Virus record (IMG/VR): IMGVR_UViG_3300009161_005617
Location: 1-25,722 of that record
Origin: a virus
Strand: one strand, 5' to 3'
Length of the DNA stretch: 25,722 nucleotides
Shown: in pieces, positions 3,413 to 23,480 of the stretch
How positions within the stretch are numbered: position 1 is the first letter of the stretch
How the letters are laid out: every line of letters begins with the position of its first letter
The notes under the pieces: model-generated
The model's input: only the letters and a program-made list of their open reading frames with translations
Told to the model about the DNA's origin: nothing
Databases searched by the model: none
Translations under genes and position numbers: made by a program

Positions 3413-4102
3413 ATGGAAAAAGAACCAGAAATCATTGATGCTATAGTACCAGCACCAACACAAGAAATTAAAACCGACAAACCTAATAGGATGTTCAGTG
3501 ACCTAAAAGAAACTGACAAACCTCTATCCCCTTTGCCTCCAGACAGCATGGCAGATATATCTTATCCTCAATTTGTGGAACCAAGATGTGCTATGTGTAC
3601 TTCTCCTTTTAGAGATATAGCTGAACATGTATTTCTTGAATCTGGTAAAAAACCCCAAGCAGTAATTCATTTTTTTAATAAATATTATGATGCTAAATTA
3701 AACTGGGTGCAGGTTAACAATCACATGGAAAACCATTGTGATTTCAAAAAAATAGCTGTATCTGGTTTGAAAAATTACGAACAGAGAGAAGAGTTAATTG
3801 CTCCTTGGATCTTTAGAGAACACCAATTAGCATTAATAGCTCTTCTTGTTGAGCTTGATGATATTAGAGGTATGGATTGTTCAAAAAATAATGACCTCAA
3901 ATTAAGAAGAGCTCAAATGGTGGAAAGACTTGTCACAAAAATTCTTATGCTAAAAGATTCTAGAGACAATAATGGAATTTACTCAATTAACATTTTTGAA
4001 ATTTTGATGGAACTTCATGAAAATATGGAATCAGAAGTTGACAAAAGATTAATTAGAGACAAATTAAATTACTTGAGAGAAAAAATTAGTAAGGATAATT
4101 AA
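3413..4102 (+). CDS. Putative terminase small subunit (Zn-finger/HTH-like DNA-binding protein)
   Basis: This 229-residue protein is read from ATG 3413; the in-frame GTG at 3374 is rejected because it lies in a terminator stem. It sits immediately before the large terminase, with stop and start overlapping as TAATG, the usual place of a small terminase that recognises phage DNA and hands it to the motor. Residues 59-62 are CAMC, followed by a helical stretch and then HMENHC at 104-109. Together this is a C-x2-C...H-x3-H arrangement of the kind seen in small zinc-containing helix-turn-helix proteins. A proline-rich, probably disordered N-terminus (1-50) precedes it. The C-terminal half (about 125-229) is charged and helical, suitable for oligomerisation. 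The role is inferred from position and domain style, not from a specific match. Confidence 0.6.
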   Translation: MEKEPEIIDAIVPAPTQEIKTDKPNRMFSDLKETDKPLSPLPPDSMADISYPQFVEPRCAMCTSPFRDIAEHVFLESGKKPQAVIHFFNKYYDAKLNWVQVNNHMENHCDFKKIAVSGLKNYEQREELIAPWIFREHQLALIALLVELDDIRGMDCSKNNDLKLRRAQMVERLVTKILMLKDSRDNNGIYSINIFEILMELHENMESEVDKRLIRDKLNYLREKISKDN

Positions 4103-6216
4103 TGCGAAAGCCACTTCCAAAAGCTCCAGTTCCAGATTTAAAATCTCAACTATTACAACAATCCAGAGAGGCAGTAGAATTTTTCAAGGATTCTGGTTAT
4201 GCTTCTGAATTCTCTGATGATATTATGCCTTCTGTTAGATCAGAAGTAGCTCCACCGTCCAAACCTTCTAAAGATAGATTTAACCCTGATCAAATAGTAG
4301 ATATTATAACATTTATTGAACATCCATATTTCTGTAATTTGAAACCATACCCTTGGCAAAAATTAATCCTTAAGTGCTTCTATATGGGACAAGAAGGAAA
4401 CACTAATCTTAACATAAACTCAAGCGACAATAAAGATGATTGTAAAGGATGTGTTTGGGAATATGTCAATGATAATGAAAAAATCTTTGCAAATCATAAA
4501 AAACAAGGTAATCAATTTAAAACTATTTTCACAGTGACAAATTCTCCTTGTCTTCAATGCAAAAGATTGTCATCAGAAATCAGAGAGGTTAGATATCATT
4601 CCGCTAAACAAGAAGCAACAAATCCTGATGCTGAAAGGCAAGTGCTAAATTTATCTCAAAGACCCATTATTGATAATTTTCAATCAGAACAAGATTTATT
4701 AGAAGATGAAGAATTTGATCAAAAGCTAAGAAAACAAGTAGAAGATAAATGCACCAATAGATTTAAATTTGAAGAACTTGTTTTAGTGCTTGGCCGCCGT
4801 TCTGGAAAATCATTTCTTGTTTCAGCTATGGCTCTTTATGAACTTTACAGGCTAATTTCCATGGGTCATCCTCAAGCTAGGTATGGCTTGATGGAGTTTG
4901 ACGAAATTGTGCTGTTAAATGTGGCTAGAAATGAAGAACAAGCTAAGAAAGCTATCTTCTCTAAGATCAAACAAACAGTGCTAGCATCACCATTTTTTGC
5001 CCCTTATATTGGCAAAGACACAGAACTTGAAATGAGGTTTTATTCTGACCATGATCGGGAAGAAAATGAAAGAAGAAAACTTAAGGGTTTAAATCCATTT
5101 TCTGGTTCTTTGGTATTAAGATGTGGTTCTTCAAATGCTTCAGGTCTTGTAGGTCTTACTTGCTGGGCTATCATTATGGACGAAGTAGCTGCTATGGCTG
5201 GAGATAACCCTGATTCTGGTGTTGACTATGCTCTTTATGATGATCTAAAACCATCTCTGGCTACTTTTGGAAGAGATGGAAAAATGATGATGCTTTCCAA
5301 CCCCAAAGGACCAATTGGATTGCTTTATGATTTACATGAAAATAGACAAGATGATCCCACCACACTTGTAATGAGACTTCCCACTTGGCTCACTAATCCT
5401 AATATTGACATTGAATGGTTAGAAAGTCAAAAGAAAAAAGATCCCACCGAATTTACCATGCAGTATGGTGCTGAATTCGGAGCTTCTTCATCAGATCCAA
5501 TGTTTCTGAAAGATGACATAGACAGAATGTCTTCAAGTATGTTGATGGTTCCTAGAGCAGAAAGAGCTGCAAGTTTACATGAATATTATTGTCATCTTGA
5601 TCCTGCTAGAACATCAGATTATTATGCTCTTGTAGTGGCTCATACTGAAAATATGATTGGGCAATATGGTCCTGATAAATTACCTATGAAAAGAGTGGTA
5701 ATAGATCACATTCATTTTTGGAATCCTAAAACTAAAAACCAACCAGTTTCAGAAAGAGATGTAGAAGAATATGTCATTCAATTACATGCTAGATTTAAAT
5801 TCAAGCAAGTTAGTTTTGATCAATGGCATTCACAGTCTTCTATTATAAAACTACAATCTTTTGGTATCAATGTAGCAGAAAGACAATTTAATAAAGAATA
5901 TAAAGAGAAAATTTATACCGAATTGTCACAACTAATTAGAGAAGACAGAATTGATGTTTATGACTTATCTAGTGGAAAATATATTGATGAAGCTGGAACA
6001 GAACAAGATATCAATGAAATTCAAGAAGCTAAAATTCAATTCTTATTTTTACAAAAAAAATGGAAGGGCAAGAGATATTATATTGAATCATTGTCAGGGT
6101 ACAAAGATGATATTTGTGATGCTATTGCTGCTGTTTCCTATGAATGTTTAACAAGTAAAATACAATCAAGACTTCCAACTTCAAGATTAACAAATTTAGG
6201 GAGCAGGTTTAGATAA
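4102..6216 (+). CDS. terL: Terminase large subunit (packaging ATPase and nuclease)
   Basis: This 704-residue protein is the motor that pumps DNA into the prohead and cuts the concatemer. The ATPase shows Walker A GRRSGKS at 231-237, Walker B AIIMDE at 356-361 with catalytic E361, and a coupling motif MLSNPKGP near 397-404. The RNase H-like nuclease domain follows. It has D500 in HLDPA, D573 in SFDQW, and the terminal acidic cluster YKDDICDA at 667-674. All expected acidic positions are present, so the nuclease looks intact. Unusual is an insertion before the ATPase with CKGC at 114-117 and CLQC at 150-153, probably a zinc-binding knuckle. The length is above the roughly 450-650 residues usual for the family because of this region. 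The start overlaps the preceding stop, so the two genes are translationally coupled. Confidence 0.95.
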   Translation: MRKPLPKAPVPDLKSQLLQQSREAVEFFKDSGYASEFSDDIMPSVRSEVAPPSKPSKDRFNPDQIVDIITFIEHPYFCNLKPYPWQKLILKCFYMGQEGNTNLNINSSDNKDDCKGCVWEYVNDNEKIFANHKKQGNQFKTIFTVTNSPCLQCKRLSSEIREVRYHSAKQEATNPDAERQVLNLSQRPIIDNFQSEQDLLEDEEFDQKLRKQVEDKCTNRFKFEELVLVLGRRSGKSFLVSAMALYELYRLISMGHPQARYGLMEFDEIVLLNVARNEEQAKKAIFSKIKQTVLASPFFAPYIGKDTELEMRFYSDHDREENERRKLKGLNPFSGSLVLRCGSSNASGLVGLTCWAIIMDEVAAMAGDNPDSGVDYALYDDLKPSLATFGRDGKMMMLSNPKGPIGLLYDLHENRQDDPTTLVMRLPTWLTNPNIDIEWLESQKKKDPTEFTMQYGAEFGASSSDPMFLKDDIDRMSSSMLMVPRAERAASLHEYYCHLDPARTSDYYALVVAHTENMIGQYGPDKLPMKRVVIDHIHFWNPKTKNQPVSERDVEEYVIQLHARFKFKQVSFDQWHSQSSIIKLQSFGINVAERQFNKEYKEKIYTELSQLIREDRIDVYDLSSGKYIDEAGTEQDINEIQEAKIQFLFLQKKWKGKRYYIESLSGYKDDICDAIAAVSYECLTSKIQSRLPTSRLTNLGSRFR

Positions 6217-7280: not shown

Positions 7281-7297
7281 ATGTAAAATATATATAT

Positions 7298-9436: not shown

Positions 9437-9736
9437 ATGTTTGCTGATCCTTTGGATGATACTGAGGTTGTTTTGTTTGTGTTTGATAGTCCTGATGGTT
9501 ATTCTTTCTGGAATAAAAATGTTGATTTTCCATTAAGTTTAGCATTCTTAGACAAAAATATGGAGATTGTTGATTTAGGAGACATGCAAAAACAAAGTAC
9601 TAAATCATTATCTCCAAAATCTAATTCTGTTGTTTATGTTGTAGAAGCCAAACTAAACTTCTTCGAAAACAATGGAATTAAAAAAGGCGACCAGTTTGAA
9701 ATTAAAAATAAAAAGCTGATTGTCAAAAAACAGTAA
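9437..9736 (+). CDS. DUF192 domain, in frame with the upstream gene across a TGA
   Basis: The segment matches the DUF192 family. GLMFADPL (codons 9431-9454) corresponds to the family's GLM-x-R block. FWNKNVDFPLSLAFLD is the counterpart of the FWMKNT-x-x-PLDI-x-FLD signature. YVVEAKLNFFENNGIKKGD matches the Y-V-L-E...GIKxGD end. The ATG at 9437 lies inside the domain, in the GLM block, and would lose the first beta strand. That strand is encoded between the TGA at 9359 and 9437 (EFDIRFIAD). No ribosome site precedes 9437. The domain therefore makes best sense as the C-terminal part of a readthrough product with 8891-9361, or as a remnant of a gene broken by a nonsense mutation. The function of DUF192 is not established. 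Confidence 0.75.
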   Translation: MFADPLDDTEVVLFVFDSPDGYSFWNKNVDFPLSLAFLDKNMEIVDLGDMQKQSTKSLSPKSNSVVYVVEAKLNFFENNGIKKGDQFEIKNKKLIVKKQ

Positions 9737-9810: not shown

Positions 9811-10873
9811 AAGTTGAGGATTATAAAAAAAATAAGCCGAGGAGTTTATAAAAATCATGGCAGATATTATTTTTCCAAATACATATCATGATGATTCTTT
9901 TGAGTCGGATGCTATGTTCAAAGGTATTGATTGGAATAATTTCAATCAAAAACTGGCACAAGCTAAAGAAGATAAAGAAAAAGAAGTTACCAGCGATGTT
10001 TTGGATTTACTAGAATCACTTAAAGAGTCTAATCCTAGCAAATTTCATGAAACTGTGAATAAAGTCATGCCCGAAAAGGCAGATGATAAAGTTGAAGTCA
10101 AGAAATCTGGTTGGAGAGCTGCTAAGGAAATGTGCTCCAGCTGTGATTGCGATCCATGCGAATGCGATGAAAAAGTAGCTAAGAAAAAGTGCAAAGAGTG
10201 TGGCAAGATCAAACCATGCGCTTGCGATAACAAAGAAGCTAAAATGGTCAAGAAAGCTCCTATAGCTTTCACACATCCTTCTCAACTTTCAGCAGAAGCA
10301 GTAGAAGCAGCATTAGCATCTGGTGATCAAGTTTTAGCTAACACTATTTTAGCTGCTAGACATGAGAGAAGAGTAAGATTGGCTAATAGAATCCAATCCA
10401 CTGTTCAAGCTCAAGAAGAAAAGGCAGTTAAACTTGCTCAAAGAAAAGCTTATAGAGAATCATTAGTGAAACAAGCAAGTTCTACAAAAACCACTATTAC
10501 AGCAAATAGATCAACTAAAACCAAAGCAGTGGCTGATAATGGTTTTGTTAAGATTTCTGAATTGAACCATAGAGCTAAAGCTGCTTTTGCAGAAAAGGCC
10601 CTTGCTGAGGGTTTTCCTTCAGAGTATGTAAATGCTGTTTTAGGTGAAGCTTTTAATTCTGCTGAAAAAACAGAAGAAATTAAGAGAGTGATGAGCTCCA
10701 GTCTTGAAGTAAATGTCAAGAAAGCAGCTGTTAAGTCAATGGTCAAAACTGCCACTCTTTCCAGTGCCGATTATTCTAGATTAGTTAACTATTGGAAGAA
10801 TGAATTAGGTTATGGCGATGTGGCGTGGATCAATGAGTTATTCACAAAGAAATACGATTAGAATCCTCAACTT
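9811..10873. repeat. Perfect 12-bp inverted repeat at the two ends of the Cys-rich gene
   Basis: AAGTTGAGGATT at 9811-9822, in the leader, is the exact reverse complement of AATCCTCAACTT at 10862-10873, right after the stop codon. In the messenger RNA the leader could pair with the 3' end. Alternatively the pair may mark the edges of a mobile or exchanged cassette. There is no flanking target duplication that I can see. Confidence 0.5.
9857..10861 (+). CDS. Cys-cluster hypothetical protein of the head module
   Basis: This 334-residue protein starts at ATG 9857 behind GAGGAG. Nine cysteines lie within residues 93-123 (C93, C96, C98, C101, C103, C112, C115, C121, C123). The C-x2-C-x-C-x2-C-x-C spacing resembles metallothioneins or a double zinc knuckle. 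The rest is Ala/Lys/Glu-rich and helical, with a segment near 245-280 resembling the small helical unit in the genes at 2637 and 11705. A KTAT motif occurs near residue 298, followed by LSSADYSRLVNYW; the scaffold-like protein at 21190 has a matching RTASLSS. I do not recognise a family. It is likely a minor head or core protein; metal storage is an alternative. Leader and terminator suggest its own transcription unit. Confidence 0.75.
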   Translation: MADIIFPNTYHDDSFESDAMFKGIDWNNFNQKLAQAKEDKEKEVTSDVLDLLESLKESNPSKFHETVNKVMPEKADDKVEVKKSGWRAAKEMCSSCDCDPCECDEKVAKKKCKECGKIKPCACDNKEAKMVKKAPIAFTHPSQLSAEAVEAALASGDQVLANTILAARHERRVRLANRIQSTVQAQEEKAVKLAQRKAYRESLVKQASSTKTTITANRSTKTKAVADNGFVKISELNHRAKAAFAEKALAEGFPSEYVNAVLGEAFNSAEKTEEIKRVMSSSLEVNVKKAAVKSMVKTATLSSADYSRLVNYWKNELGYGDVAWINELFTKKYD

Positions 10874-10876
10874 TGT

Positions 10877-10908
10877 TAGCCCAGGATAATATCTTGGGCT
10901 ACTTTTGT
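10877..10908 (+). terminator. Terminator after the Cys-rich gene
   Basis: TAGCCCAGGAT (10877-10887) pairs with ATCTTGGGCTA (10891-10901), eleven pairs including one G-T, with a three-base loop. It is followed by CTTTTGTT. The stem is strong and the U-tract modest. Confidence 0.7.
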
Positions 10909-10937
10909 TGATTAAAGAAATTAGGAAATAAAAGATA

Positions 10938-11702
10938 ATGGGCAACTTTAGAAGAGTATCTGACACTACTAACTTACCAAATTTTATCGAAAAAAAGTTT
11001 GTTGGTGCTCAAACTGAAATTGAAGAAGATCCATATGCTGAACTTAGAAATAATTCTGCTGATAACAGAGTAAAAATTTCTAAGCAAACTATGGGTATAA
11101 CAAAAACTGCTTCAATTAAGTCTTGGGAAAAAATAGAACAATCATCTACACTTAATCATTTTTCTGAAGACACATTAGAAAACAGATTACTTTCTGGCAA
11201 TTATGGTAATGAAAATACCAAAACTGCTAGTAACCTACAAGCATTTTCACCAGATGATTATATGAGTGTATTGATGAAAAGTCCACAAGAAATTTTCAAT
11301 CCTCAAATGTTTGGTATTCAAGAAGATTTTTTGGTTAGCCAAGAAAAAGAAAGTCATCAAGCAATTGTTAACAATCAACATAGAAGAGAAGCAAAAGCAT
11401 CCAGACATTCAAGCTGGGAACAAAATGCTCTTGATTCTTTAAGACAATCTAAAGTTGTTAACTCAAGAGCTCATTCTATCTTAAGAGTATCTTCAGACGT
11501 TGAGTCAAAATCATCACAATTTGGTGTCTTAGACCCTAATGAACTTGATGCTAGAGAAAACATGAGAGCAGCTAATCAAAACAGAGCTAGAGAGCAAAAA
11601 TTAGCTATAAAAAAGAAACAACACGAAGATCTTGTCAATAAATCTTTAAATCATTCTAAAACTTTAGCTGATATATACAATAGCTTTGATCTTGACGATT
11701 AA
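10938..11702 (+). CDS. Hypothetical head-region protein with two KTAS motifs
   Basis: This 254-residue protein starts at ATG 10938 with AGGAAA about ten bases upstream. I do not recognise it. It is polar, rich in Ser, Asn and charged residues, with no membrane segment. KTAS occurs at 56-59 and 95-98, the motif repeated in the portal, protease and scaffold-like proteins. The last third (about 195-245) is a highly charged, probably coiled helical region. It heads a run of four tightly packed genes leading to the portal (gaps of 2, 1 and 0 bases), so it is probably co-translated with them and has a structural or assembly role. Confidence 0.7.
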   Translation: MGNFRRVSDTTNLPNFIEKKFVGAQTEIEEDPYAELRNNSADNRVKISKQTMGITKTASIKSWEKIEQSSTLNHFSEDTLENRLLSGNYGNENTKTASNLQAFSPDDYMSVLMKSPQEIFNPQMFGIQEDFLVSQEKESHQAIVNNQHRREAKASRHSSWEQNALDSLRQSKVVNSRAHSILRVSSDVESKSSQFGVLDPNELDARENMRAANQNRAREQKLAIKKKQHEDLVNKSLNHSKTLADIYNSFDLDD

Positions 11703-11704
11703 AA

Positions 11705-12637
11705 ATGAGAAAATATTCGCAATTTAATGCTCCACTGGCATCAACTCCTGGTGGCCCTAATAACATTGAACTTAACGGTGAAGCTGCTGAATTTGGTGGT
11801 GAATCTGCTGAGGGTGTAACTCCTGAGGAAATGATTAAAGTCCTTGATGAAATTAATCAAATGGATAATTTTCAAGGAGATGCAAAAAATACAATTGTAC
11901 CCAAACTTGAAGATTTGTTATTGAAATTAAAAGACCAAGAAATAAAATCAAAAGTTTCTGTAATTATTAATGCATTAAATATGGCGAGTGATCCAAGAAA
12001 ACAAACAACTGATCCTGAAACTGGTAAAAGAGATCCAGGGCCAAAAGAATTGACCCAAACTCTAATTACCATAATTAAAAACAAAACTCCATCTGAAAAT
12101 CAAAACACTATGGAAAATCAATCACCCACGGAGAACACTATGGCATCTGTTTACAATCACAAAACAGCACAAAAAGTTATCAAGAAAAAAAAGAAAACTA
12201 GAGGAAATCCATTTAGAGTTCTGATGGGTAAAATTGGCAAATTATTAGACCATGGTGTTGGTAAGAGTGATATTGTCAGATATATTGCTAAAGAAGACAA
12301 GTGGAGCAATGAAACTATTGACAAAGCAGTGAAGATTGTTATGGATTATAACAAAAAACGAAATCAAAAAAAATCTTCAAATGATTCAAGAGTTGTTACT
12401 GCTGCTTACGATTACACAGAAAAACCAAATTTTGAAAAAAGATCCACACCTGAATTAATTTTTAGAGTTTGTTATTTATTAGATTTAGATGACTACAGCA
12501 AAACAACCAGACAAGGTCATGGCAAAGATGCTGATAGCAAAAAAGGCGTAAAAGAAGAAATTTCCAAAATTAGACAAGCCCTAACAAACAGAGGTATGTC
12601 AAAAGAAGAAATGGATAAACTAGGATTCGGAAAATAA
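11705..12637 (+). CDS. Hypothetical head-region protein with a basic helical domain
   Basis: This 310-residue protein starts two bases after the previous stop. The N-terminus is Gly/Glu-rich and flexible, then helical at about 40-95. A lysine cluster (KVIKKKKKTRGN, near 158-169) leads into a small helical unit, LLDHGVGKSDIVRYIAKED, which resembles a helix-turn-helix or UBA-like fold. The C-terminal region (about 235-310) is again helical and charged. The basic tract suggests contact with DNA. HKTAQ and VVTAA resemble the motif described for the other head proteins. No family is recognised. Confidence 0.7.
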   Translation: MRKYSQFNAPLASTPGGPNNIELNGEAAEFGGESAEGVTPEEMIKVLDEINQMDNFQGDAKNTIVPKLEDLLLKLKDQEIKSKVSVIINALNMASDPRKQTTDPETGKRDPGPKELTQTLITIIKNKTPSENQNTMENQSPTENTMASVYNHKTAQKVIKKKKKTRGNPFRVLMGKIGKLLDHGVGKSDIVRYIAKEDKWSNETIDKAVKIVMDYNKKRNQKKSSNDSRVVTAAYDYTEKPNFEKRSTPELIFRVCYLLDLDDYSKTTRQGHGKDADSKKGVKEEISKIRQALTNRGMSKEEMDKLGFGK

Positions 12638-12638
12638 A

Positions 12639-14051
12639 ATGAGTAGATACGAATTAACAACAAGAGTAGAAACTAAAAATCCTGAAACCCTGAAATTAGT
12701 TGGTGGGACAGGTCTTCTTAATATGCTTTCGGATACTATTAACAGAATGAGTGGCAATTCATATGTTTACAGTGATTCTCCATTTAGTTTATTAGATGAA
12801 AATAAAGACTTTGATAAAAATGACAAAATTGTACAGTCTTTTTTCAATAAGATAAACAATGTAGAAAAAGTATTTGCTTCTTCTAACGGTAAGCAAATTT
12901 TATCTGATACATATGGCACTTTATTGAATATTAGATTATCAGATTTAAGATTACAAATGAGAAAAGCATATAATTACATTCAAAATGCTTTAGATATCTC
13001 AAATGATGCTGTTAGATTGGAAAGAATTGCTTCAAAAATCCCAACAAGATCATCAGGGCATTATCAAGTAACAGCGCTCAAAGCTTTAGATGAGTTGATC
13101 AAATTATCATTAACTAGTTTCACAGACACAAAATTTAACAATGTAAAAAATTATGTTCTTTCAGGCAGCAAAGAAAACTACAGAACTGCCGCTAGATTAT
13201 TAAAAGATTCATTTGAAGAATTAACTCCTACTGAAAATAGAAGATTAGCTTACACCACTCTTCAAGTAAATATGAATGAGCCTTTCCTGTTGTGCCCAAA
13301 AGGTAAGTTTAATGGCTCAAATAACTCTGGCGCTGTACCGATGGAAATCTCAAAATGTAGAGAAAACTGTATAGACTCCAGAGTAGATGCTGATGGAAAA
13401 GTTAGCTGTAATTATCAAGCTTGGCTAACTGCTTCTTTTGAGCCTCATGATAAAGTTATGGCTAGATTAGATGTATCAAGACATCCTGACAATGAAGCTA
13501 ATTTGCTAAACATTGAAGAAGGCAAGCGAAAGAGACACGATGATCAACCAGGTTTCGAAAAAATGCTCGATGAAGCCAAAGAAGGTATCAATAAAGCAAG
13601 AAACAGTTCAGATTATGAAAACTCTAGAGAATATCAATTAAGAAATCGAAAAGCGCCATATTCAAATTATGAAAACAAAGAAAACAAAGAATTTGATCAG
13701 CCTATCGAATCAAAACTAAATCACAAACTTGATGATAAAGTTAAAACTACGAAAGTGGCTGGTGTTTTTGATTATATTTTAAATAGATCTGAAGATGAAG
13801 ATTCTTATGATGCTTATAGAAAATCATATCTTCAAAAAACTGCTAAATTAGTGGAAGATAAAGAAGATCAAGAAACAACAGAAACAATGCTAGAAGACAG
13901 AAGACATAACAACAAAATCACCAAAGATATTGAAGCATTGTTAGCTGGAGATGAAGTTGAATTTTCACATCAATATTCAGATGATGATCTTAAAACATTT
14001 GCTAGCGAATTAGGATTAGATCATTTATTAGAAGATAAAAGAGAAAATTAA
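12639..14051 (+). CDS. Hypothetical head-region protein with a central Cys motif
   Basis: This 470-residue protein begins one base after the preceding stop. Residues 1-215 are predicted mainly helical. A compact central block holds C219, then KCRENC (239-244) and SCNYQAWL from 256, a four-Cys arrangement (C219, C240, C244, C257) that could bind zinc or form disulphides. The C-terminal 200 residues are very charged, with many Asn, Asp, Glu and Lys, and probably disordered. They contain KVAG and KTAK motifs. No catalytic signature is seen. Its place directly before the portal suggests a head or packaging-associated structural protein. The next gene is in the same frame and starts on the base after this TAA. 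Confidence 0.7.
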   Translation: MSRYELTTRVETKNPETLKLVGGTGLLNMLSDTINRMSGNSYVYSDSPFSLLDENKDFDKNDKIVQSFFNKINNVEKVFASSNGKQILSDTYGTLLNIRLSDLRLQMRKAYNYIQNALDISNDAVRLERIASKIPTRSSGHYQVTALKALDELIKLSLTSFTDTKFNNVKNYVLSGSKENYRTAARLLKDSFEELTPTENRRLAYTTLQVNMNEPFLLCPKGKFNGSNNSGAVPMEISKCRENCIDSRVDADGKVSCNYQAWLTASFEPHDKVMARLDVSRHPDNEANLLNIEEGKRKRHDDQPGFEKMLDEAKEGINKARNSSDYENSREYQLRNRKAPYSNYENKENKEFDQPIESKLNHKLDDKVKTTKVAGVFDYILNRSEDEDSYDAYRKSYLQKTAKLVEDKEDQETTETMLEDRRHNNKITKDIEALLAGDEVEFSHQYSDDDLKTFASELGLDHLLEDKREN

Positions 14052-14333
14052 ATGTGGTACAGAATTATCAAATCTCAAGTCAATGATACAGAAGATTTGA
14101 AGATTCCTGCTTTTTTACTTGAAGGAGAGGAGAATATAAAGTCTCCTCTTTTTTCAAATTTAGAATCTCAATTGGAAGAAATTAGAACAGGTGAAGATCC
14201 TTTAGGCATATCTGTTGAAAAAGGACAAGGCGGGATGTATATGAAAAATGGCGAAGGCACATATCAATATTCATCTGGTAAAGGCGCACCAATGTTCCAA
14301 GATAATTTCCCTTCAAGTAAACAATTAATATAA
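14052..14333 (+). CDS. Small hypothetical protein before the portal
   Basis: This 93-residue product starts at the ATG directly abutting the preceding TAA, in the same frame, so translation is probably coupled by re-initiation. It begins MWYRIIKSQ, sharing the unusual MWY start with the metallopeptidase-like gene at the left. The C-terminal half is Gly-rich (GQGGMYMKNGEGTYQYSSG). No family is recognised. A terminator-like hairpin lies inside the coding region at 14126-14154, which might lower expression of the full-length transcript and of the portal. Confidence 0.6.
   Translation: MWYRIIKSQVNDTEDLKIPAFLLEGEENIKSPLFSNLESQLEEIRTGEDPLGISVEKGQGGMYMKNGEGTYQYSSGKGAPMFQDNFPSSKQLI
14126..14154 (+). 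terminator. Intragenic terminator-like hairpin upstream of the portal gene
   Basis: AGAGGAGA (14126-14133) pairs perfectly with TCTCCTCT (14142-14149) around an eight-base loop, followed by six T. It has the form of an intrinsic terminator but lies inside the frame 14052-14333. It may act as an attenuator, separating the small-gene block from portal expression. Confidence 0.45.
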
Positions 14334-14353
14334 TATCCTAAACAAGGTATAAT
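14325..14353 (+). promoter_or_regulatory. Candidate promoter directly before the portal gene
   Basis: TATAAT (14348-14353) lies 17 bases after a weak -35 TTAATA (14325-14330); a second TATAAT is at 14329-14334. Transcription from the first would begin close to 14360, almost at the ATG (14363), giving a nearly leaderless messenger. Such boxes arise often in AT-rich DNA, so support is limited. Confidence 0.35.
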
Positions 14354-14362
14354 ATAAGAGCA

Positions 14363-16708
14363 ATGGCAACAAAAACAACATTAGCTTCAGCAATTAGATC
14401 CGCAGGTAAATATGCGATCAAAGATGCTTCAGCTGTAAAATCTCCAGAATCATCAAATTACGCTAATAGTAGAGTAACAGTTACAGGGTCAAATGTATCA
14501 CCTAATTTAAGTAAAGTAGCTCAAATGGGTGGTGGTACAAATACGATGACCACTTCTCCTAACTTTTATTCTCCCTTCCTTACTCCATCATCTTTTCAAA
14601 TTCCAAATGCTAGACGTGAAGTTTACCTATGGGCTAACTGGTGGAAGAATAACGAGCCTAAAATTTCTGCTGCCATTAATTTTTATGCCAGTTATCCTTT
14701 TTCTGGATGGACTCTTGAATTCTCTTCTTCTTATGTAAAAGATTATTTCGAAAAACTTATAGACAAATTAAACTTTCAAAAATGGTTGCCAGAAGTTTCT
14801 AAGGTATATCATCTCCTTGGTGATTGTTTTGTTTTACTTTCGATAGATTGCCCTCATTGCCATGGTTCAAACTGGGATGATGATAAAAATAAAGAATGCG
14901 AACACGATGGAGCTTCTTGGAAATCTATATCTATCCTTAATCCAGACAGTGTATATAAAACTCCCGGTATGATTGATCAGCCTGGAAAGTATGTTTATAG
15001 ACCCTCATCTGATGAAGTGAGAATTGTTAATGAAAGAAATCCTAAAGATATTTATGATGCTATTCCTGACAGCATAAAGAAACTAATTCAAAAAGGCGAT
15101 CCAATCACATTAAATCCGATTTCTATTTATCACTTTAAATATGGCTCAAATCCCTGGGAAGATTATGGCACTCCGATGATCAGATCTCTTTTCCCGGTGT
15201 TGACATATAAAGATAAAATTAGACAAGCACAATTTGTTATTGCTGAAAGATTAATTATTCCTATCAAAGTGGTGAAGATAGGTAACAATGAAAGACCAGC
15301 ATCTCAAGAAGATATTGATAATGCTCAAGATGAATTAGCTGCTATCGCTAATGATCCTAACTTAACCCTTGTCACCCATCATGCTTTTGAAATGGAATAT
15401 GTTGGAGCAGATGGCAAAATTCATAATCTTTCTAATGAGTTTGAATTAATTGGTCAAGAAATCTTAGACGGAGTTATGCTTAATAAACTTTTACTTAATG
15501 GTGAAGGCCCAGCATATTCTTCAGGTCAAGTGGGTTTGCTTGCTATGGAAAAAAGAATCAACACTTTTAGAAATGAAGTGGCAAGATGGATTGAACAAAA
15601 TGTCTTTAAGCCTGTCTCACAATGGAATGGTTTTACTGTTGAAGGTGAGAGAGGGCAAGAAGAAATTGTCTACCCCACTATTAAATTTGATGATTTAGAC
15701 CTAAGAGATGATACAGGCAAACTTCAAACCCTTGTTACAGCAAATCAGAATGGTGTTATTTCAAATGTTAGCTTAATGGAAGCTTTTGGGTTAAATCCTG
15801 ATCAAGAAATTGAAAGATTAAGATTTGAACAAGGTAATAACTTTATGAATGATCAGAATTTTGGAATGCCAAATTTCTCATTCAATATGCAAAGCGGTCC
15901 TGTTACTGGTCAAGGTTTTGGTGCTGCTCCTCAAGGTGCTGCTCCTGGAATGCCAGCTGGTGGAGCAATGCCTGGTGCTGCTCCTGAAATGGGAATGACT
16001 GCGCAGACCAAAGATCAAATGTACAAGACAGCATCTGAAATTGTTAATGACATTTACAATGAAAGATTGAAACTAAATAAATCAAATGCTAACACTAGAG
16101 TAGCTGGAAAAAGATTTAAATCAGCAGCACATGAAGACTTTTTAATGTCAATTCACCCAGTTACAGGTAGAGGCAATCTTGGGCCTTTGCCAGATGAATA
16201 TGATGGCTTATATGGCACAATTAATGCTCAAATTTTAGGTGGTGATAATTCTATACCATTAAACAATGAAGCATTTATTGAATTGAAATTAGCCGAAAAC
16301 TCTGAAAATGAAATTTACAGAAATGTTTATGCTAAAAAGGCAGAGATGGGACAACCTCAATTGTTTACATCTATTGAGAAAATGCTTTACATCTTATTGT
16401 TGTCATTAAATATGCCTTATGCTTTGTATGCTCAATATTCAGCTGGTCCTACAGGTGATTATCAATTAGATGCTGCCATTCCATCTTTGCAAATTGGGTT
16501 AGAGGCTGATGGAGGAATTTGGCACAGTAATCCAGAAAAAATAGCAAGAGATAAAAGAAGAGATTCTGAATTAGCTGCTAACGGATGGGTAATTTTAAGA
16601 TTTACAGATAAAGAATTAAAAGATCATCCACAAGATTGTATGAATGTAATTTTGAAAGCTGTTAGGAAGAAATCTGGAGTTACCTCTGAGGGAAAGATTA
16701 CTCTCTAA
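14363..16708 (+). CDS. Portal protein with a C-terminal DUF559/Vsr-like nuclease domain
   Basis: This 781-residue protein has a portal region at about 80-500, forming the dodecameric DNA channel at the head vertex. Supporting signs are the WANWWKNNEPKISAAINFYA block (about 90-109), SIYHFKYGSNPWEDYGTPM (254-272), the following helical region, and the position before protease and capsid genes. A probable zinc knob (C163, C166, C179, H181) interrupts the wing. Residues 511-545 are an Ala/Gly/Pro/Met-rich linker, then KTAS at 555-558. Residues about 668-770 look like a PD-(D/E)xK nuclease of the DUF559/Vsr type: E672, D703 in YQLDAAIP, E714 and D716 in LEADGG, H721, then RDKRRDSELAANGW and RFTDKE. 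All key acidic residues are present. The fusion to a portal is unusual; frame and domain are continuous, without stop or frameshift. Confidence 0.88.
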   Translation: MATKTTLASAIRSAGKYAIKDASAVKSPESSNYANSRVTVTGSNVSPNLSKVAQMGGGTNTMTTSPNFYSPFLTPSSFQIPNARREVYLWANWWKNNEPKISAAINFYASYPFSGWTLEFSSSYVKDYFEKLIDKLNFQKWLPEVSKVYHLLGDCFVLLSIDCPHCHGSNWDDDKNKECEHDGASWKSISILNPDSVYKTPGMIDQPGKYVYRPSSDEVRIVNERNPKDIYDAIPDSIKKLIQKGDPITLNPISIYHFKYGSNPWEDYGTPMIRSLFPVLTYKDKIRQAQFVIAERLIIPIKVVKIGNNERPASQEDIDNAQDELAAIANDPNLTLVTHHAFEMEYVGADGKIHNLSNEFELIGQEILDGVMLNKLLLNGEGPAYSSGQVGLLAMEKRINTFRNEVARWIEQNVFKPVSQWNGFTVEGERGQEEIVYPTIKFDDLDLRDDTGKLQTLVTANQNGVISNVSLMEAFGLNPDQEIERLRFEQGNNFMNDQNFGMPNFSFNMQSGPVTGQGFGAAPQGAAPGMPAGGAMPGAAPEMGMTAQTKDQMYKTASEIVNDIYNERLKLNKSNANTRVAGKRFKSAAHEDFLMSIHPVTGRGNLGPLPDEYDGLYGTINAQILGGDNSIPLNNEAFIELKLAENSENEIYRNVYAKKAEMGQPQLFTSIEKMLYILLLSLNMPYALYAQYSAGPTGDYQLDAAIPSLQIGLEADGGIWHSNPEKIARDKRRDSELAANGWVILRFTDKELKDHPQDCMNVILKAVRKKSGVTSEGKITL

Positions 16709-16729
16709 CATCTTAATAGATTGTACAAT

Positions 16730-16760
16730 AAACCCATCGATTTCGATGGGTTTTGTTTTT
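16730..16760 (+). terminator. Rho-independent terminator after the portal gene
   Basis: AAACCCATCG (16730-16739) pairs perfectly with CGATGGGTTT (16744-16753), with a four-base loop, followed by TGTTTTT. Its design is the same as the terminator at 3368. Confidence 0.85.
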
Positions 16761-16828
16761 AAACAGGAATTAAACCTCTTGAATAAGAAGTGTTTTATAG
16801 ATTGTTTGTTATTTGAGGATGCATAAAT

Positions 16829-19800
16829 ATGTACAGAGTTGCTAAAGGTGGAGCTATAACTATAGAAAGTTTCTTGAATGAAAATGACAGAGATTTTGCT
16901 AGAAATTATATGCTTAAGACAGCTTCATCCACTATGAGAGAAGCTGCTAAAATTGGCTTACAATCTTTATATGCTGATCCTGAAGATGTATTAGAAAAAT
17001 ACAAAGACTTTGATATTGTTAAAGAAATGCAAGCTCGTAAAGGTGCCAAACTTTTATGGGTAAGAGCCAGAGCAATTGATGCTGATGTTGTTAATGCTAA
17101 TGGTGATTATTTTTCTAAAGAAGAATTACTTAAAGAAGTAGAAATCAAAGGCGAAAAAATCCCTTCATATAAAACATTTGAAGGTGTGCCAATTTACACA
17201 AATCACAAAAATGATGACATTGAGCAAGCCAAAGGAATGGTTGTATATGCTGAATGGGATGAAAAAGAAGATTGTGTTTATTGTACTTTTTTTGTCGATG
17301 AAGAAGCATATCCAGATATTGCTAGAAACATTCGCACTGGTGTTATTCATGATGTTTCAATGGGAGCTTCAGTTGAATACGGTATCTGTTCAAAGTGTAG
17401 CAACAAAGCATACACTGAAAAAGATTATTGTGAATGTTTAAAAAAATACAAAGGCAGAACACACCCTGACACTGGAAAGAAAATTTACGAAAAAAACTTT
17501 GATGTTAAATTCATAGAACTTTCTTGTGTTGGAGATGGAGCTTTTGAGTCTTGTGAAATTCAAGAAATTTATGATGTTGAAGATGTTTTAGATGCTGCTC
17601 AAAACTTAGAAAAAAAAGCACAAGAAATATGTTCAAATATTGTTTTAGCTCATCAAGGTGCTCCAAAACACGGCGTTGAGAAATATCAATATGAACATCT
17701 TTTAAGAGTAGCTGAAAACACTGCTACTACAGCTATTAGATTAGCCCAATCAGCTGGAACACTTGTTGGTGGTCCTTTACTAGCTGGTCAAGGTGCTAAT
17801 CAAAATTCAACTGTATCAGCAATTCTACAAGGATTAGGTATTGATCCAAGGTCTGGTTTAAATGTACTAGATATGATCAATTTATCATTAAACTTTTTAG
17901 AAGTGGCAGTAATGAATATGTTTGCCAGAAAAGACAATGTAGACTTGACCCATGTTGGCAAGATTACAAAAGCAATGGCAGACCTTCAATCTACAATGCA
18001 AGATATGATTGATGATGGAGTTGATGTTGGAGCTGGACAAAGAGCACCAATGAATCAAGGTCAACTTCAGCAACAACAACAATCAAATCCGATTTCTGCT
18101 AATGTTGGTTTAGCAGATTATAGCCCAGCAGGAGATGTTGGAAGAATGATTGAGCCTATGGTATCTAATTCTTCTGAACCTGTCGGTGGGGGTGTGGCGC
18201 TAGCAAGTTCTGATGTACATTTTGTTTGGGCAAGTGCTGATGGTAAAAGAGAAGTTTTTGCCAGTAATAAAACATCAAAGCCACAACCAAAAAATAAAGT
18301 TATGAACATGGCTGAAAATCTGATGAAATTAAAAAATTCAATTGGAGATGAAGCTGGAGTTCAAAACAGTATAAATAATGTCATTAGACTAGCTAATGAG
18401 AGAAACAAATTTATAAAGTCAAACACGCCAAAAAATAACGAGGCGGAGGTCATACATCAAATGGATCATTTTACAAAGATTGCTGCTGAACAAAGAAAGA
18501 AACTTGCCGCAGCTGTAACTATTGATTTTAAGGTAGAAGATAACACTGGTAACAGAGTTGTTCTTTCTACTGACGGTTCCATTTCTGGTTATGTTGAAAA
18601 TAAAAGAACAAATTGGAATCCAATTTTATCTGAAAAACAACTTGAAATGATGGAATCGGGTCAAGGTACAAGAGTTGCTGCTGATTTACTTAAGGATTTC
18701 AGTGGTTTTATTAAGACAGCTCTCCTTCCTGTTAAATCCAGAGAAGAATCAAGACAAAAACAGCTTGATGAAGTGAGAACTGGTGAAGGTTATGGAAAGT
18801 GGGATGTTTCAGTTCAAGACAAGTTGAGTGATCAATACAGAGACGATCTCTTAGATTTAAAAGAAAATCTTTTAGATGGCTCTGGTGATGGTGTCAGAAG
18901 AACTGAAAAGCATGAATCTGGTGAGAAGGCTCTTTCTGACGCTGGATTATATAAGCACAATGTAATTGACAAAGAAGTGAATAAAACTTATCAAGAACTT
19001 CTCGAAGACTCTCGAAAGGGTGTTGATGAAAGAACAATTGAGGAGAAGATAAGATCTTATCACAAGCATGGCACAGCACCTTCACATGAAGTTATGACAG
19101 CTACGGTTAGAGCATTAGCTAAAGCAGTAGTGGCAGCTGTTGAAACTCCTTCACAAATTATTAGAGTTGCTCAATTATTATCTCAAGAACCAGAATTGCC
19201 TTCAATGATTGGTGTTGCTTCTGAAGGTCAAGATTTTAGACAAGATCAAGATGAAAAGCAACAATTCTTTGGTGCTGAAAAAGGTGCTGATACTGGGGTA
19301 GCTGCTGTTCTTAAACAACTTGGCGCAGCAGTAACCATGGAAATCACTGCTGCTGATTTAGCTGAAGCACTTGCTGTCGCAGCTGAAGAATCTGAAATCA
19401 CTAAAGAGGGTGTCAAGAGAATTGCTGAGATCTTCATGGGACAAGCAAATGTACCTGGTGAAGGCCTTGATGTTGATGCTGTACCATCAAAAAATGAAGA
19501 ACTCAGATCTGCTCTTATGGCAGCAGTTGATTCAGATGACAAACTTCCATCAAAAGAAGATGTAAAATCTGCAATCTCTGCTATGGCTCAATCTTCTGAA
19601 GAAACAGGAACCACCCCTGATGAAGTAGTTGATGTTATAGCTTCTATGACAAAAGATCAACTTATTAAGGCAATTAGCAAAGCAAAAACTGCTACAGCTA
19701 CAGATGCAAGATTAAGATCAAGAGCAAGAAGAGAATTCTGGGGCGTTAAAACTGCTTCCACAAAAGATGTTGCTACTAATGTCGTTGGATGGTTAGCTGA

Positions 19801-21025
19801 CTATTCTACTAATTTCAACATCGGTACAAGATCAATTGTAACTGCTGCTAAGAGATTTGTTAGTGACCCAGAAGTAGCTGAAAGATTATTGATTAAAGCT
19901 ATTCAAGCAAAAAAACAAGCTGAATCTGGTATGAAAGTAACACAAGACAAAAGCGAAACCATGAGATTCATGTGTACAGTTGATGATCTTGATGGCGCAA
20001 ACCCTTCAGATGAGAATTTTGATGAAACATTTAAACAAAAGGCTATTCAAGTACTTTCAGAAAAAGGTTACCAAGTAGATCCAGGAACATTCTCATTTAC
20101 AGATCTTTGTGTATTTGAAGATGGCAGAGTTGAAGCTTCTGTTTCAACAAGATCAACCAAGACATTTGATGTTGAGAGATCCTCTTCAATGCCAATGGAA
20201 GGCTCTGTGGATGTAGCTGTTGTTGAATCACCAGTTGTTATGACTGAAGGTGCTAGATTCTCAAGAACAAGACTTCGTAATGAAGTTTTGGCTAAATATG
20301 CTCAAGTAGCTCCAGGTATGGGTGGTGGAATGGGTGCACCTATGGGTGGTGCTCCAGGCGCTGCTCCAATGGGAGATCCGATGGGTGCTCCTCCTGCTCC
20401 TGCTGGTGCTGATTTAGGTGTTTCAGCTTTAACTGGTGGACCTGATGCTATGGGTGAAGATATGGACGCAGTATCTGAGCCAGGTGCAAAGAAACCTTGG
20501 GGTAGTGTATGTCCTGTCTGCGGATCCGACGATGTAAATATTGCTGAGTCTAATGCTGATTGTCAATCATGCGGTAGTACATACAAGATCCTTCAATCAC
20601 TTGAGTTGGTATCTGAAGGTGGCAAGGGTGGTTCTGAGCCATCAATGGATGAAGGCTTGGGTGGAGCTGAATTAGGTGGAGCCGGATTGGGAGAAGCTGG
20701 ATTAGGTGCTGCTACAGCCCCTGCACCTGCTCCGGGAATGGGTGCTGGAAATATGGCTCCTATGGCTTCTGCTAAACTAATGTTAAGATTAGCAACAGTT
20801 GTAGATGCTGATGTTTACTTAAGAACCGCTTCTCCTGATTTCGACAGAACCACTGAGAAAAGATTACCAGTAGGTATGATTTGTCCAAAATGTGGAAACA
20901 GAAATGCTCACAAAGTCAAGTCTAGTACTTTCTGCTATGATTGTGGAACTTACAGCAAGACAGAAGTAAGAGCAAATACAAAGAATCCTTCCAAGCTTGA
21001 TGCCACTATCACTTGGATTGATTAG
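16829..21025 (+). CDS. Prohead-protease-like N-terminal domain fused to a long scaffold-like region and two zinc ribbons
   Basis: This 1398-residue protein starts at ATG 16829 behind TGAGGA. Residues about 70-250 resemble phage prohead serine proteases (HK97/T4-type fold). H126 in IYTNH and S177 in HDVSMGAS are the probable catalytic pair, followed by a Cys insert (C187, C190, C201, C203) and FIELSCVGDGAF. Such proteases trim scaffold and shell proteins before DNA packaging. The middle (about 260-1150) is long, Ala/Gln/Glu-rich and mostly helical, like a scaffold or core protein. Two Ala/Gly/Pro/Met-rich linkers (about 1160-1200 and 1285-1320) flank a zinc ribbon (C1228, C1231, C1245, C1248); a second ribbon follows (C1352, C1355, C1369, C1372). 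KTAS or similar occurs at 30-33, 953-956, 974-977 and 1332-1335, ahead of the protease and between regions, which fits self-processing but is unproven. Confidence 0.8.
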   Translation: MYRVAKGGAITIESFLNENDRDFARNYMLKTASSTMREAAKIGLQSLYADPEDVLEKYKDFDIVKEMQARKGAKLLWVRARAIDADVVNANGDYFSKEELLKEVEIKGEKIPSYKTFEGVPIYTNHKNDDIEQAKGMVVYAEWDEKEDCVYCTFFVDEEAYPDIARNIRTGVIHDVSMGASVEYGICSKCSNKAYTEKDYCECLKKYKGRTHPDTGKKIYEKNFDVKFIELSCVGDGAFESCEIQEIYDVEDVLDAAQNLEKKAQEICSNIVLAHQGAPKHGVEKYQYEHLLRVAENTATTAIRLAQSAGTLVGGPLLAGQGANQNSTVSAILQGLGIDPRSGLNVLDMINLSLNFLEVAVMNMFARKDNVDLTHVGKITKAMADLQSTMQDMIDDGVDVGAGQRAPMNQGQLQQQQQSNPISANVGLADYSPAGDVGRMIEPMVSNSSEPVGGGVALASSDVHFVWASADGKREVFASNKTSKPQPKNKVMNMAENLMKLKNSIGDEAGVQNSINNVIRLANERNKFIKSNTPKNNEAEVIHQMDHFTKIAAEQRKKLAAAVTIDFKVEDNTGNRVVLSTDGSISGYVENKRTNWNPILSEKQLEMMESGQGTRVAADLLKDFSGFIKTALLPVKSREESRQKQLDEVRTGEGYGKWDVSVQDKLSDQYRDDLLDLKENLLDGSGDGVRRTEKHESGEKALSDAGLYKHNVIDKEVNKTYQELLEDSRKGVDERTIEEKIRSYHKHGTAPSHEVMTATVRALAKAVVAAVETPSQIIRVAQLLSQEPELPSMIGVASEGQDFRQDQDEKQQFFGAEKGADTGVAAVLKQLGAAVTMEITAADLAEALAVAAEESEITKEGVKRIAEIFMGQANVPGEGLDVDAVPSKNEELRSALMAAVDSDDKLPSKEDVKSAISAMAQSSEETGTTPDEVVDVIASMTKDQLIKAISKAKTATATDARLRSRARREFWGVKTASTKDVATNVVGWLADYSTNFNIGTRSIVTAAKRFVSDPEVAERLLIKAIQAKKQAESGMKVTQDKSETMRFMCTVDDLDGANPSDENFDETFKQKAIQVLSEKGYQVDPGTFSFTDLCVFEDGRVEASVSTRSTKTFDVERSSSMPMEGSVDVAVVESPVVMTEGARFSRTRLRNEVLAKYAQVAPGMGGGMGAPMGGAPGAAPMGDPMGAPPAPAGADLGVSALTGGPDAMGEDMDAVSEPGAKKPWGSVCPVCGSDDVNIAESNADCQSCGSTYKILQSLELVSEGGKGGSEPSMDEGLGGAELGGAGLGEAGLGAATAPAPAPGMGAGNMAPMASAKLMLRLATVVDADVYLRTASPDFDRTTEKRLPVGMICPKCGNRNAHKVKSSTFCYDCGTYSKTEVRANTKNPSKLDATITWID

Positions 21026-21036
21026 TTAAAATAAAC

Positions 21037-21070
21037 TTTATGGGGGAGAATTAATTTTCTTCCCCATAAA
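21037..21070 (+). terminator. Strong hairpin after the protease gene, without a U-tract
   Basis: TTTATGGGGGAGAA (21037-21050) pairs with TTTTCTTCCCCATAAA up to 21070, about fourteen pairs with one G-T and a six-base loop. No T run follows, so it may serve as an RNA-processing or stability element instead of a classical terminator. Confidence 0.5.
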
Positions 21071-21081
21071 ACATTGTAAAA

Positions 21082-21189
21082 CTATAAATGAGCAGGTGGA
21101 AACACCTAATATTTAGAAGAATAAAATAAGTTGTAACAAGTATTCTTGTTTCAGCTTTTCAAACAAAATTTTGAGGGAAGCAGCTGATA
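21082..21189 (+). other. Structured leader of the scaffold-like gene
   Basis: The leader contains AGGTG-GAAA-CACCT (21094-21107), a small hairpin with a GNRA tetraloop, and AACAAG-TATT-CTTGTT (21135-21150). A possible CAGCT/AGCTG pairing encloses the ribosome site TGAGGGA. The start CTATAAATG near 21082 resembles a T4-type late promoter box with one mismatch. No known riboswitch is recognised. Confidence 0.35.
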
Positions 21190-22779
21190 ATGAAAAATGT
21201 AAAGAATAATGCCAATAATCAAGACAAAATGGCAGCTCTTCGCATTGCAGAAATCAAAGCCACCGATTTAGAAGATCTTAAGGACTGCGCTAACGATATG
21301 ACTAGAACAGCATCATTATCAAGTGATGAAGCCATTGTTGTAGCAAAAGCAATCAGAGCCAAGTATCTTCCAAATTTAGCAAAACAAGCCGGTTTAGATG
21401 AACGCAATGTCAAGAACTTAATCAATCTTGATAATGGCATTGAAGACACAGCAAACTTCGCAACCGATATAAATGAAGATGAAGATAACGAAATGCATCA
21501 TTTTGAAGATGATGAAGAAGATTTAGAAGAAGATTATACAGACGACGAAGCCGAAGTAGACGATTCAGAGATGGCAAAATTTGAAATTGAAGTTCCCGCT
21601 GATATGGTTGACGCAGCACAGGAAGCCGTGCAAAAAGCGCTTGACGAACTTCTTGGCGGAATGGATGATTCTGAAGAGTTTGAAGATGATGAAGAATTAG
21701 ATTTTTCTGATGAAGATGATGAAGAAGAAGATTTTGATGACTCAGATGATGATATGGATATGGAAGAAGATTCCGAGCAAATGCACAAATTAAGTAATGG
21801 AGTTAAGAAAATGAGTAAAAATGCTCAAAACTCTCGAAGAGCTGAGAGAGAAGAAATTCTTAAGAAGCTTGCTATGGCACCTGAAGAATATGATGTTGCC
21901 GCAGCTCCTAAGAACTACAAAAGCACAGAAGATTTTAACCTTCCTGGCCAAAAGAAGTTTCAGACTCAAACACTAGAAAACAGTGGAAGCAATAGCCTTA
22001 AGGATGAGAATCCTACTTGGGCTGAGCAAAAACTTTTTACTACTGACAAAGAGAAGATTCAGTCAAAAGACCAATTTACGAGTTTTACTCTTCCAGGCAA
22101 ATCAGAACCTTATGTACTTCATTTCGATGACTTAGAAGTACCTTCTGAAGGCCAAATGTTTGACACCCCAACAGTTCCAACACAAATGGAACATCAAACC
22201 CATAATACTACTGTTATGAGAACTGCTTCTGATAAAGTGGCTGTCGAGTGTACAACATGTGGTTACAGAATGTCGTTAGCAGAAGATCAAATGGATTCAG
22301 CTTCTTGCCCTGAGTGTGAAGATCACGAAGACGGCGAAAAAGAAGAAAAAGATACTAAAGCAAATATGACGTTTGATGTAAGAAATCAAAAAGTTACTAC
22401 TTCTTCAAATGATTCTAAGAAAGTTATTGCTTTAGAAACTGCTAGAATTAAAACAGCATTCTCTTGTTCATCCAAGCTTGCTGTTGCTGGAATTATTGAT
22501 GCTAATGAGATGGATTCTTATGCTGATCAAATGCTCAATGATGGACTTAAGGCTGATGCTATGATCAGACAAACCAAACTTTTACTTAAGTCTTCACAAA
22601 CAAATACCGAAAGAGTTGCTGCTGCTGCTGCTGACAGAATGAACAGTGTCAGAACAGCTTCTACTATGGGTATTTCTACGTCTCCTGCATTCTCTGGTGG
22701 TTTTACCTCCAATGGTGCAGCACTCGATATCCAAGCTGCTCTTAAGGGCACTTGGTCAATGCCTCAAATCGAGGATTAG
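21190..22779 (+). CDS. Acidic scaffold-like head protein with a zinc ribbon
   Basis: This 529-residue protein starts at ATG 21190 behind GAGGGA. Residues about 94-198 are dominated by Asp and Glu, as in many prohead core or scaffold proteins. A four-Cys ribbon lies at C354, C357, C373 and C376. RTAS or KTAF occurs at 39-42, 344-347, 421-424 and 488-491, the motif shared with portal, protease and the 10938 protein. The C-terminal 120 residues are helical and Ala-rich. The order protease, this gene, decoration protein, capsid protein supports a role as scaffold removed or processed before packaging. I do not recognise a named family, so the role is inferred from composition and place. Low-complexity tracts may mislead similarity searches. 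Confidence 0.65.
   Translation: MKNVKNNANNQDKMAALRIAEIKATDLEDLKDCANDMTRTASLSSDEAIVVAKAIRAKYLPNLAKQAGLDERNVKNLINLDNGIEDTANFATDINEDEDNEMHHFEDDEEDLEEDYTDDEAEVDDSEMAKFEIEVPADMVDAAQEAVQKALDELLGGMDDSEEFEDDEELDFSDEDDEEEDFDDSDDDMDMEEDSEQMHKLSNGVKKMSKNAQNSRRAEREEILKKLAMAPEEYDVAAAPKNYKSTEDFNLPGQKKFQTQTLENSGSNSLKDENPTWAEQKLFTTDKEKIQSKDQFTSFTLPGKSEPYVLHFDDLEVPSEGQMFDTPTVPTQMEHQTHNTTVMRTASDKVAVECTTCGYRMSLAEDQMDSASCPECEDHEDGEKEEKDTKANMTFDVRNQKVTTSSNDSKKVIALETARIKTAFSCSSKLAVAGIIDANEMDSYADQMLNDGLKADAMIRQTKLLLKSSQTNTERVAAAAADRMNSVRTASTMGISTSPAFSGGFTSNGAALDIQAALKGTWSMPQIED
21465..21780 (+). repeat. GAT/GAA-rich low-complexity tract coding for acidic residues
   Basis: The coding strand is a near-continuous run of GAT and GAA codons in two blocks around a less biased centre (about 21560-21660). 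The complementary strand gives spurious Ser-rich frames. Repeat slippage could vary the length between relatives. Confidence 0.6.
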
Positions 22780-22810
22780 TCCTTTTAAATTAATTAGGAG
22801 AAAATAAATT

Positions 22811-23452: not shown

Positions 23453-23480
23453 TAAGACTTAATTAAGGAGAAAAATTAAA

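Follow-up and report, generated by a model that had tools for sequence, protein, structure and literature searches.

The portal protein of a phage head forms a ring, and its C-terminal part is directed towards the head interior. In T4, GFP attached to the C-terminus of the portal is located in the interior of the prohead (PMC10893049), and portal-GFP fusions still package DNA (PMC9958956). For enzymes of the ART, 2H and Nudix classes which occur as fusions to MuF or portal proteins, packaging and injection have been proposed (PMC9503650). Portals can also be processed: the portal gp81 of SPN3US is cleaved by the head protease, which removes an N-terminal propeptide and not a C-terminal domain (PMC10052503). 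On the enzyme side, the active site of Vsr comprises residues E25, D51, H64, H69 and D97, and counterparts of these residues are found in the DUF559 protein VsrA (PMC12907096). Few phage parts are as conserved as portals, and a portal bearing a nuclease was not found in the literature searched. A search combining portal and DUF559 returned no paper describing a DUF559 nuclease on a portal, and a survey of jumbo phages mentions neither DUF559 nor Vsr (PMC7824862).

Here, we analyse a stretch of 25.7 kb from an uncultured virus (the window, 25,722 nucleotides at its full length). It corresponds to a head module which contains the large terminase subunit (TerL), the portal, a protease-bearing head protein and the major head protein (Table 1). 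An earlier note, made from the letters of the DNA alone, had proposed that this portal ends in a nuclease domain of the Vsr/DUF559 type.

Table 1. Features of the portal gene and of its neighbourhood, in positions of the window
Feature	Position	Strand	Support
Terminase large subunit, ATPase and nuclease motifs intact (D500, D573, D669)	4102..6216	+	phrog_2, E 3.5e-25; motifs in relatives
Portal protein with C-terminal nuclease, 781 aa	14363..16708	+	single open frame
Portal core, residues 57-494, phage G-like / Mu-type	14531..15844	+	phage G gp14, phrog_16240
Ala/Gly/Pro-rich linker, residues about 514-549	15902..16009	+	alignment; length and sequence vary among relatives
KTAS, residues 555-558, candidate maturation-protease site	16025..16036	+	[KR]xA[S/A] in near relatives
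Second conserved segment, residues 579-627 (RVAGKRFKSAAHEDF...GG; RTASKR... in relatives)	16097..16243	+	alignment
Vsr/DUF559 (EDxHD-type) nuclease domain, residues 668-771	16364..16675	+	profile, model and structure matches
E672, equivalent of Vsr E25	16376..16378	+	60/60
D703, equivalent of Vsr D51	16469..16471	+	60/60
E714-A-D716-G-G-I-W-H721, equivalents of the Vsr H64/H69 region	16502..16525	+	E, D and H 60/60
D730 (equivalent of Vsr D97), R733, D734	16550..16564	+	60/60
Intrinsic-terminator-like hairpin and T run, 3′ of the portal gene	16730..16759	+	1 found vs 1.3 expected, weak alone
1398-aa head protein with N-terminal head maturation protease domain	16829..21025	+	phrog_18299, E 4.5e-17
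Major head protein	23481-24335

Residues 57-494 of the gene product share 28.9% identity with gp14 of phage G (tblastn, E 3e-57) and match phrog_16240 (E 1.9e-33) as well as the Pfam family Portal_Mu, the latter over its cut-off. TerL lies upstream, and the maturation protease and the major head protein lie downstream. Judged from these matches, the open reading frame at 14363-16708 is a phage portal protein of the phage G / Mu type. Portal and nuclease are joined in frame by a flexible Ala/Gly/Pro linker. A model of the full-length portal reached a pLDDT of 47 and was not used; the position of the C-terminus is taken from homology to other portals.

The nuclease motifs of TerL (D500, D573 and D669) are present in every relative with sequence spanning them. 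The portal nuclease as a substitute for a nuclease-less TerL is ruled out by these intact motifs, and the earlier note was right to regard it as an additional enzyme. Two further genes of the region may be mentioned here: a UDP-galactopyranose mutase gene lies within the head module (window positions 7271-8425; Pfam GLF, E 1.1e-58), and a DUF192 protein is encoded amid the head genes (9437-9736; E 7.2e-17). A short open reading frame resembling this DUF192 gene (start VVLFVFPRSERHAFWNKNVGFPL) occurs in the related locus L293, at about position 498.

Profile searches place the C-terminal domain in DUF559. The Pfam family PF04480 matches with E 2.8e-7 for the whole protein and 4.9e-8 for the C-terminal part, and the scores of 30.8-33.2 bits are over the curated cut-off of 20.6. 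MTES_1575 matches residues about 668-771 just under its cut-off, and the NCBIfam model PRK09767/DUF559 matches weakly (E 5.9e-7, far under the cut-off of that equivalog). The Vsr mismatch endonuclease proper (TIGR00632) missed its cut-off with 19 bits vs 97.85. An AlphaFold model of residues 555-781, derived from 20 relatives and with a pLDDT of mostly 80-92 in the domain, has the order helix, three strands, helix, strand, helix, that is a beta-beta-beta-alpha-beta-alpha core. Its best structural match is the DUF559 protein 3hrl (Z 11.2, 93 residues, 2.0 A). The catalytic domain of I-Bth0305I (3r3p) gave Z 11.1 over 96 residues at 2.2 A and a Foldseek E of 8.6e-4, and E. coli Vsr with DNA (1cw0) gave Z 9.3; 3hrl and 3r3p were also found by sequence profile alone. 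According to the model, the portal C-terminal domain has a Vsr-type PD-(D/E)xK fold. The HMM search and structure prediction which the earlier note had suggested as checks thus bear out its domain assignment, with DUF559 over cut-off and a model matching 3hrl, 3r3p and 1cw0. The Pfam scan of the portal revealed no NUMOD and no other DNA-binding module. A defence-system search of the nuclease gave weak matches only, to the PADLOC homing endonuclease model and to PDC-S37. In a BFVD fold search, the named entries among the 50 matches listed are called DUF559, endonuclease or uncharacterised and none is called portal; many entries are nameless.

When the Vsr set is aligned by order and spacing, its counterparts in the portal are E672, D703, D716, H721 and D730. 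These five residues are identical in 60/60 distinct domains, in an alignment where just 12 of 108 columns are invariant. The expression by which the domains were picked included D716, H721 and partly E714, so that the invariance of these positions is partly by construction; E672, D703, D730, R733, D734, G741, W742, R746 and F747 were not touched by it. An odd member (L270), which reads EADSETYH in this region, retains D716 and H721. Of the residues named in the earlier note, E672, D703, E714, D716, the GW pair and the RF pair are indeed present, while H721 and D730 had been overlooked. By this alignment the nuclease domain has the complete Vsr-type active-site set, and activity is predicted.

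How common is the fusion? A survey designed not to select for the nuclease, in which the portal-core alignment alone served as query, identified 79 loci, 73 of them with a portal frame ending in a stop codon. The nuclease domain is present in all 73 of these relatives with a complete 3′ end, in frame in 72 and behind an in-frame TGA in one. A search with the whole portal yielded 63 loci and searches with the nuclease only yielded 67 and 78 loci; every translated nuclease match is the end of a portal. The domains form 38 clusters below 90% identity, and the lowest pairwise identity is about 25%. The earlier note had named a frameshift as one way in which its proposal could fail and had called for a survey of portal homologues. 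Both points speak for the fusion: an origin by frameshift or artefact is ruled out, since the domain is in frame in all but one checkable relative. Contigs with a fused portal are as long as 476-479 kb, and the carriers are therefore jumbo phages. The portal nuclease is the sole DUF559 in eight of ten large contigs. Outside this group the picture changes. None of 50,697 phage records gave a match spanning 80% of the 781-aa protein, and in the portal matches listed from these records the alignment stops near residue 500. Direct reading of the portals of phage G, Tunturi_5, Rctr197k and LR745208 showed no nuclease, and the isolated phages with related portals that were checked are all without it. 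Within the group, the nuclease is neither a chance nor a recent insertion in the portal.

Several records show peculiarities. The exception mentioned above (L057 and L268, the same contig, 3300012000_000088) has an in-frame TGA in the linker and the nuclease as the next open reading frame; for this TGA, near position 7668, a sequence error, readthrough and a true split are indistinguishable. In five distant relatives (L131, L132, L192, L194, L199) the portal core contains intein-like inserts and the frame reaches 1150-1840 aa; the TerL frames in the records of L051 and L065 (1077-1085 aa) are apparently interrupted at one place. The EADSETYH variant of the nuclease is shared by L270 and L293. 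C5 cytosine methylases are encoded at similar places in both records, in contrast to the other eight contigs checked. L293 belongs, with L297-L303 and L317-L318, to JAFDWS010000002.1, a 1.36-Mb contig of an Armatimonadetes MAG which encodes a related portal (nuclease EADSETYH) and TerL. GC content is 0.52-0.57 in its first ~520 kb, which contain many tRNAs between about 440 and 520 kb, and about 0.60 in the remainder, as in another contig of the same MAG which carries ribosomal protein L2. Such a contig would have arisen by chimeric assembly or by integration of a phage of about 500 kb.

Portal core and nuclease share their history. The distances of the two parts correlate with a mirror-tree r of 0.95, the best of 2000 permutations reaching 0.50, and the main groups are common to both trees. 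The core has a median dN/dS of 0.08 and the nuclease one of 0.09, against 0.30 in the linker region; dS is near saturation and these values are rough. The nuclease is under purifying selection and has coevolved with the portal. Agreement of distances and trees together with low dN/dS therefore argues that the nuclease is a fixed part of the portal and not a passing mobile element.

A short motif deserves attention. KTAS (residues 555-558) lies directly past the linker, and its position is kept in nearly all near relatives despite variable surroundings. In the head-module proteins of the window (9857-24335), [KR]TA occurs 19 times vs 3.3 +/- 1.7 in shuffled sequences (500 shuffles, maximum 9). 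The head proteins of phage G (L013) contain nine, with 1.9 expected, and the motif is enriched in the head modules of relatives too. In the 358-kb contig of a relative the enrichment is found around the head genes, with chance level in five other stretches. KTAS also occurs at residues 30-33 of the 1398-aa head protein which carries the maturation protease domain. Because the motif is head-specific and a maturation protease gene adjoins the portal gene, the simplest reading is that [KR]xAS before the nuclease would be a maturation-protease site which frees the nuclease segment; alternatively, [KR]TA(S) could act as a head-targeting signal. More broadly, a head-specific [KR]xAS, enriched in phage G head proteins as well, offers a guess at the specificity of the maturation protease. 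In L193-L201, the most distant relatives with the fusion, [KR]xAS is missing from this place, and release is therefore perhaps not general.

Where would the enzyme sit? Since portal C-termini face the interior, as in the T4 GFP case, the nuclease is probably inside the head on the side away from the terminase, with at most 12 copies per virion. The earlier note had placed it at the DNA channel, where it could trim or nick the packaged end; the T4 portal C-terminal GFP, which is found in the prohead interior opposite the terminase (PMC10893049), speaks against this placement.

We propose, with a probability of roughly 0.45, that the C-terminal domain of the portal is an internal head nuclease encoded within the portal gene, possibly cut free and probably ejected with the DNA. 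Given the orientation of portal C-termini, up to 12 nuclease copies would lie within the head, beside the DNA. Cleavage at [KR]xAS by the head maturation protease encoded next door may leave a fragment of about 220 aa free in the head. The nuclease would then exit with the genome and could nick or cut DNA in the new host, be it the chromosome, plasmids or the DNA of rival phages. By the same logic as for the MuF and portal fusions, the portal nuclease would act on the DNA of the next host, and an attack on host or competitor DNA at ejection is compatible with the evidence. A fuller version, in which a jumbo-phage lineage makes a portal precursor, the [KR]xAS protease frees the Vsr-type nuclease and a dozen copies are ejected against host or competitor DNA, is tentative, and we regard it as possible rather than probable. 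No C5 methylase was found in eight of nine large viral contigs, and one was found in the ninth. On this count phage-coded C5 methylation is rejected as a means of self-protection, and the unexplained sparing of the phage's own DNA speaks against the proposal.

The main rival is a packaging helper at the portal: the domain would cut branched or nicked replication intermediates stalled there, as T4 endonuclease VII does. To our knowledge, Vsr, DUF559 and EDxHD enzymes are not known as junction resolvases. In T4, however, the resolvase gp49 is bound to the portal (gp20) and releases packaging-arrested Y- or X-DNA (PMC9958956), and fusion to the portal would provide the same spatial coupling. RuvC is present in phage G, where the portal is without the domain, and none of eight large contigs with a fused portal has a detected RuvC or Hjc, although these contigs may be incomplete. 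RusA-like resolvases are encoded in four of the eight contigs, two of them over cut-off, which weakens the view of the portal nuclease as the only resolvase; a search of the contigs for EndoVII matched nothing anywhere, controls included, and carries no weight. The portal C-terminus would also be inside the head, beyond where branches stall. We consider debranching unlikely. Processing of the phage's own DNA in the head, by nicking or trimming the first-packaged end or by coupling filling to cutting, appears slightly less likely still. The domain would be near the portal crown, where DNA enters, if the T4 portal is a guide, and its conservation is as strict as for a core function. Yet every relative checked has a TerL with its own nuclease, headful cutting takes place outside the head, and phage G-like portals manage without the domain.

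A retired nuclease could also be kept as a structural part, for instance one on which the internal core or scaffold docks. Surface outside the active site may be conserved, and 12 copies at the portal vertex would fit a core-nucleating role, but all Vsr-type catalytic positions are invariant in the 60/60 domains, down to about 25% identity, and we give this explanation only a slight chance. Slimmer still is the chance of a tethered homing-type nuclease, as the earlier note had considered, or of a selfish one, spreading the portal gene. The closest solved structure is a tie between the DUF559 protein 3hrl and the homing nuclease I-Bth0305I, and the PADLOC match, if weak, points the same way. 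Against this, the domain is universal in the group and not patchy, follows the tree of the portal core, is under purifying selection and comes with none of the DNA-binding modules of the Pfam scan.

The portal nuclease raises a question of wider interest: do giant phages strike at host or rival DNA as soon as infection begins, or do they resolve branched DNA at the portal? A domain fixed across a lineage with its active site intact must serve some need of these phages, and with it one can test directly if phages ship a nuclease built into the portal. The sequences suggest that, in a large group of uncultured jumbo phages, a nuclease is loaded into the virus, and it may be delivered to the next host.

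Compared with described systems, the domain resembles DUF559 (PF04480) and Vsr-like proteins such as 3hrl of N. gonorrhoeae and VsrA of Caulobacter in its fold, in the order and identity of E, D, D, H, D and in GW..RF. Those proteins are free-standing, whereas the domain described here forms the C-terminal end of a portal. The EDxHD homing endonuclease I-Bth0305I (3r3p) has the same fold (Z 11.1) and the same catalytic residue pattern. Unlike I-Bth0305I, the portal nuclease has no detected DNA-recognition modules and is universal, vertically inherited and not mobile; instead of a mobile homing context (intron, intein or free-standing), a link to the portal was found in every checkable relative. 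Phage G (Donellivirus) gp14 has a homologous portal core and likewise a Gly/Pro-rich tail, but it lacks the nuclease domain, and the 497-kb phage G genome contains no DUF559. T4 endonuclease VII on gp20 is, as here, a nuclease held at the portal; it is a separate, unfused junction resolvase of the HNH type, in contrast to the fused Vsr-type domain. Finally, MuF and portal fusions and polyvalent head proteins likewise carry an enzyme domain on a head protein and are proposed to be packaged and injected, but the enzymes of the MuF and portal fusions belong to other classes, ART, 2H or Nudix (PMC9503650).
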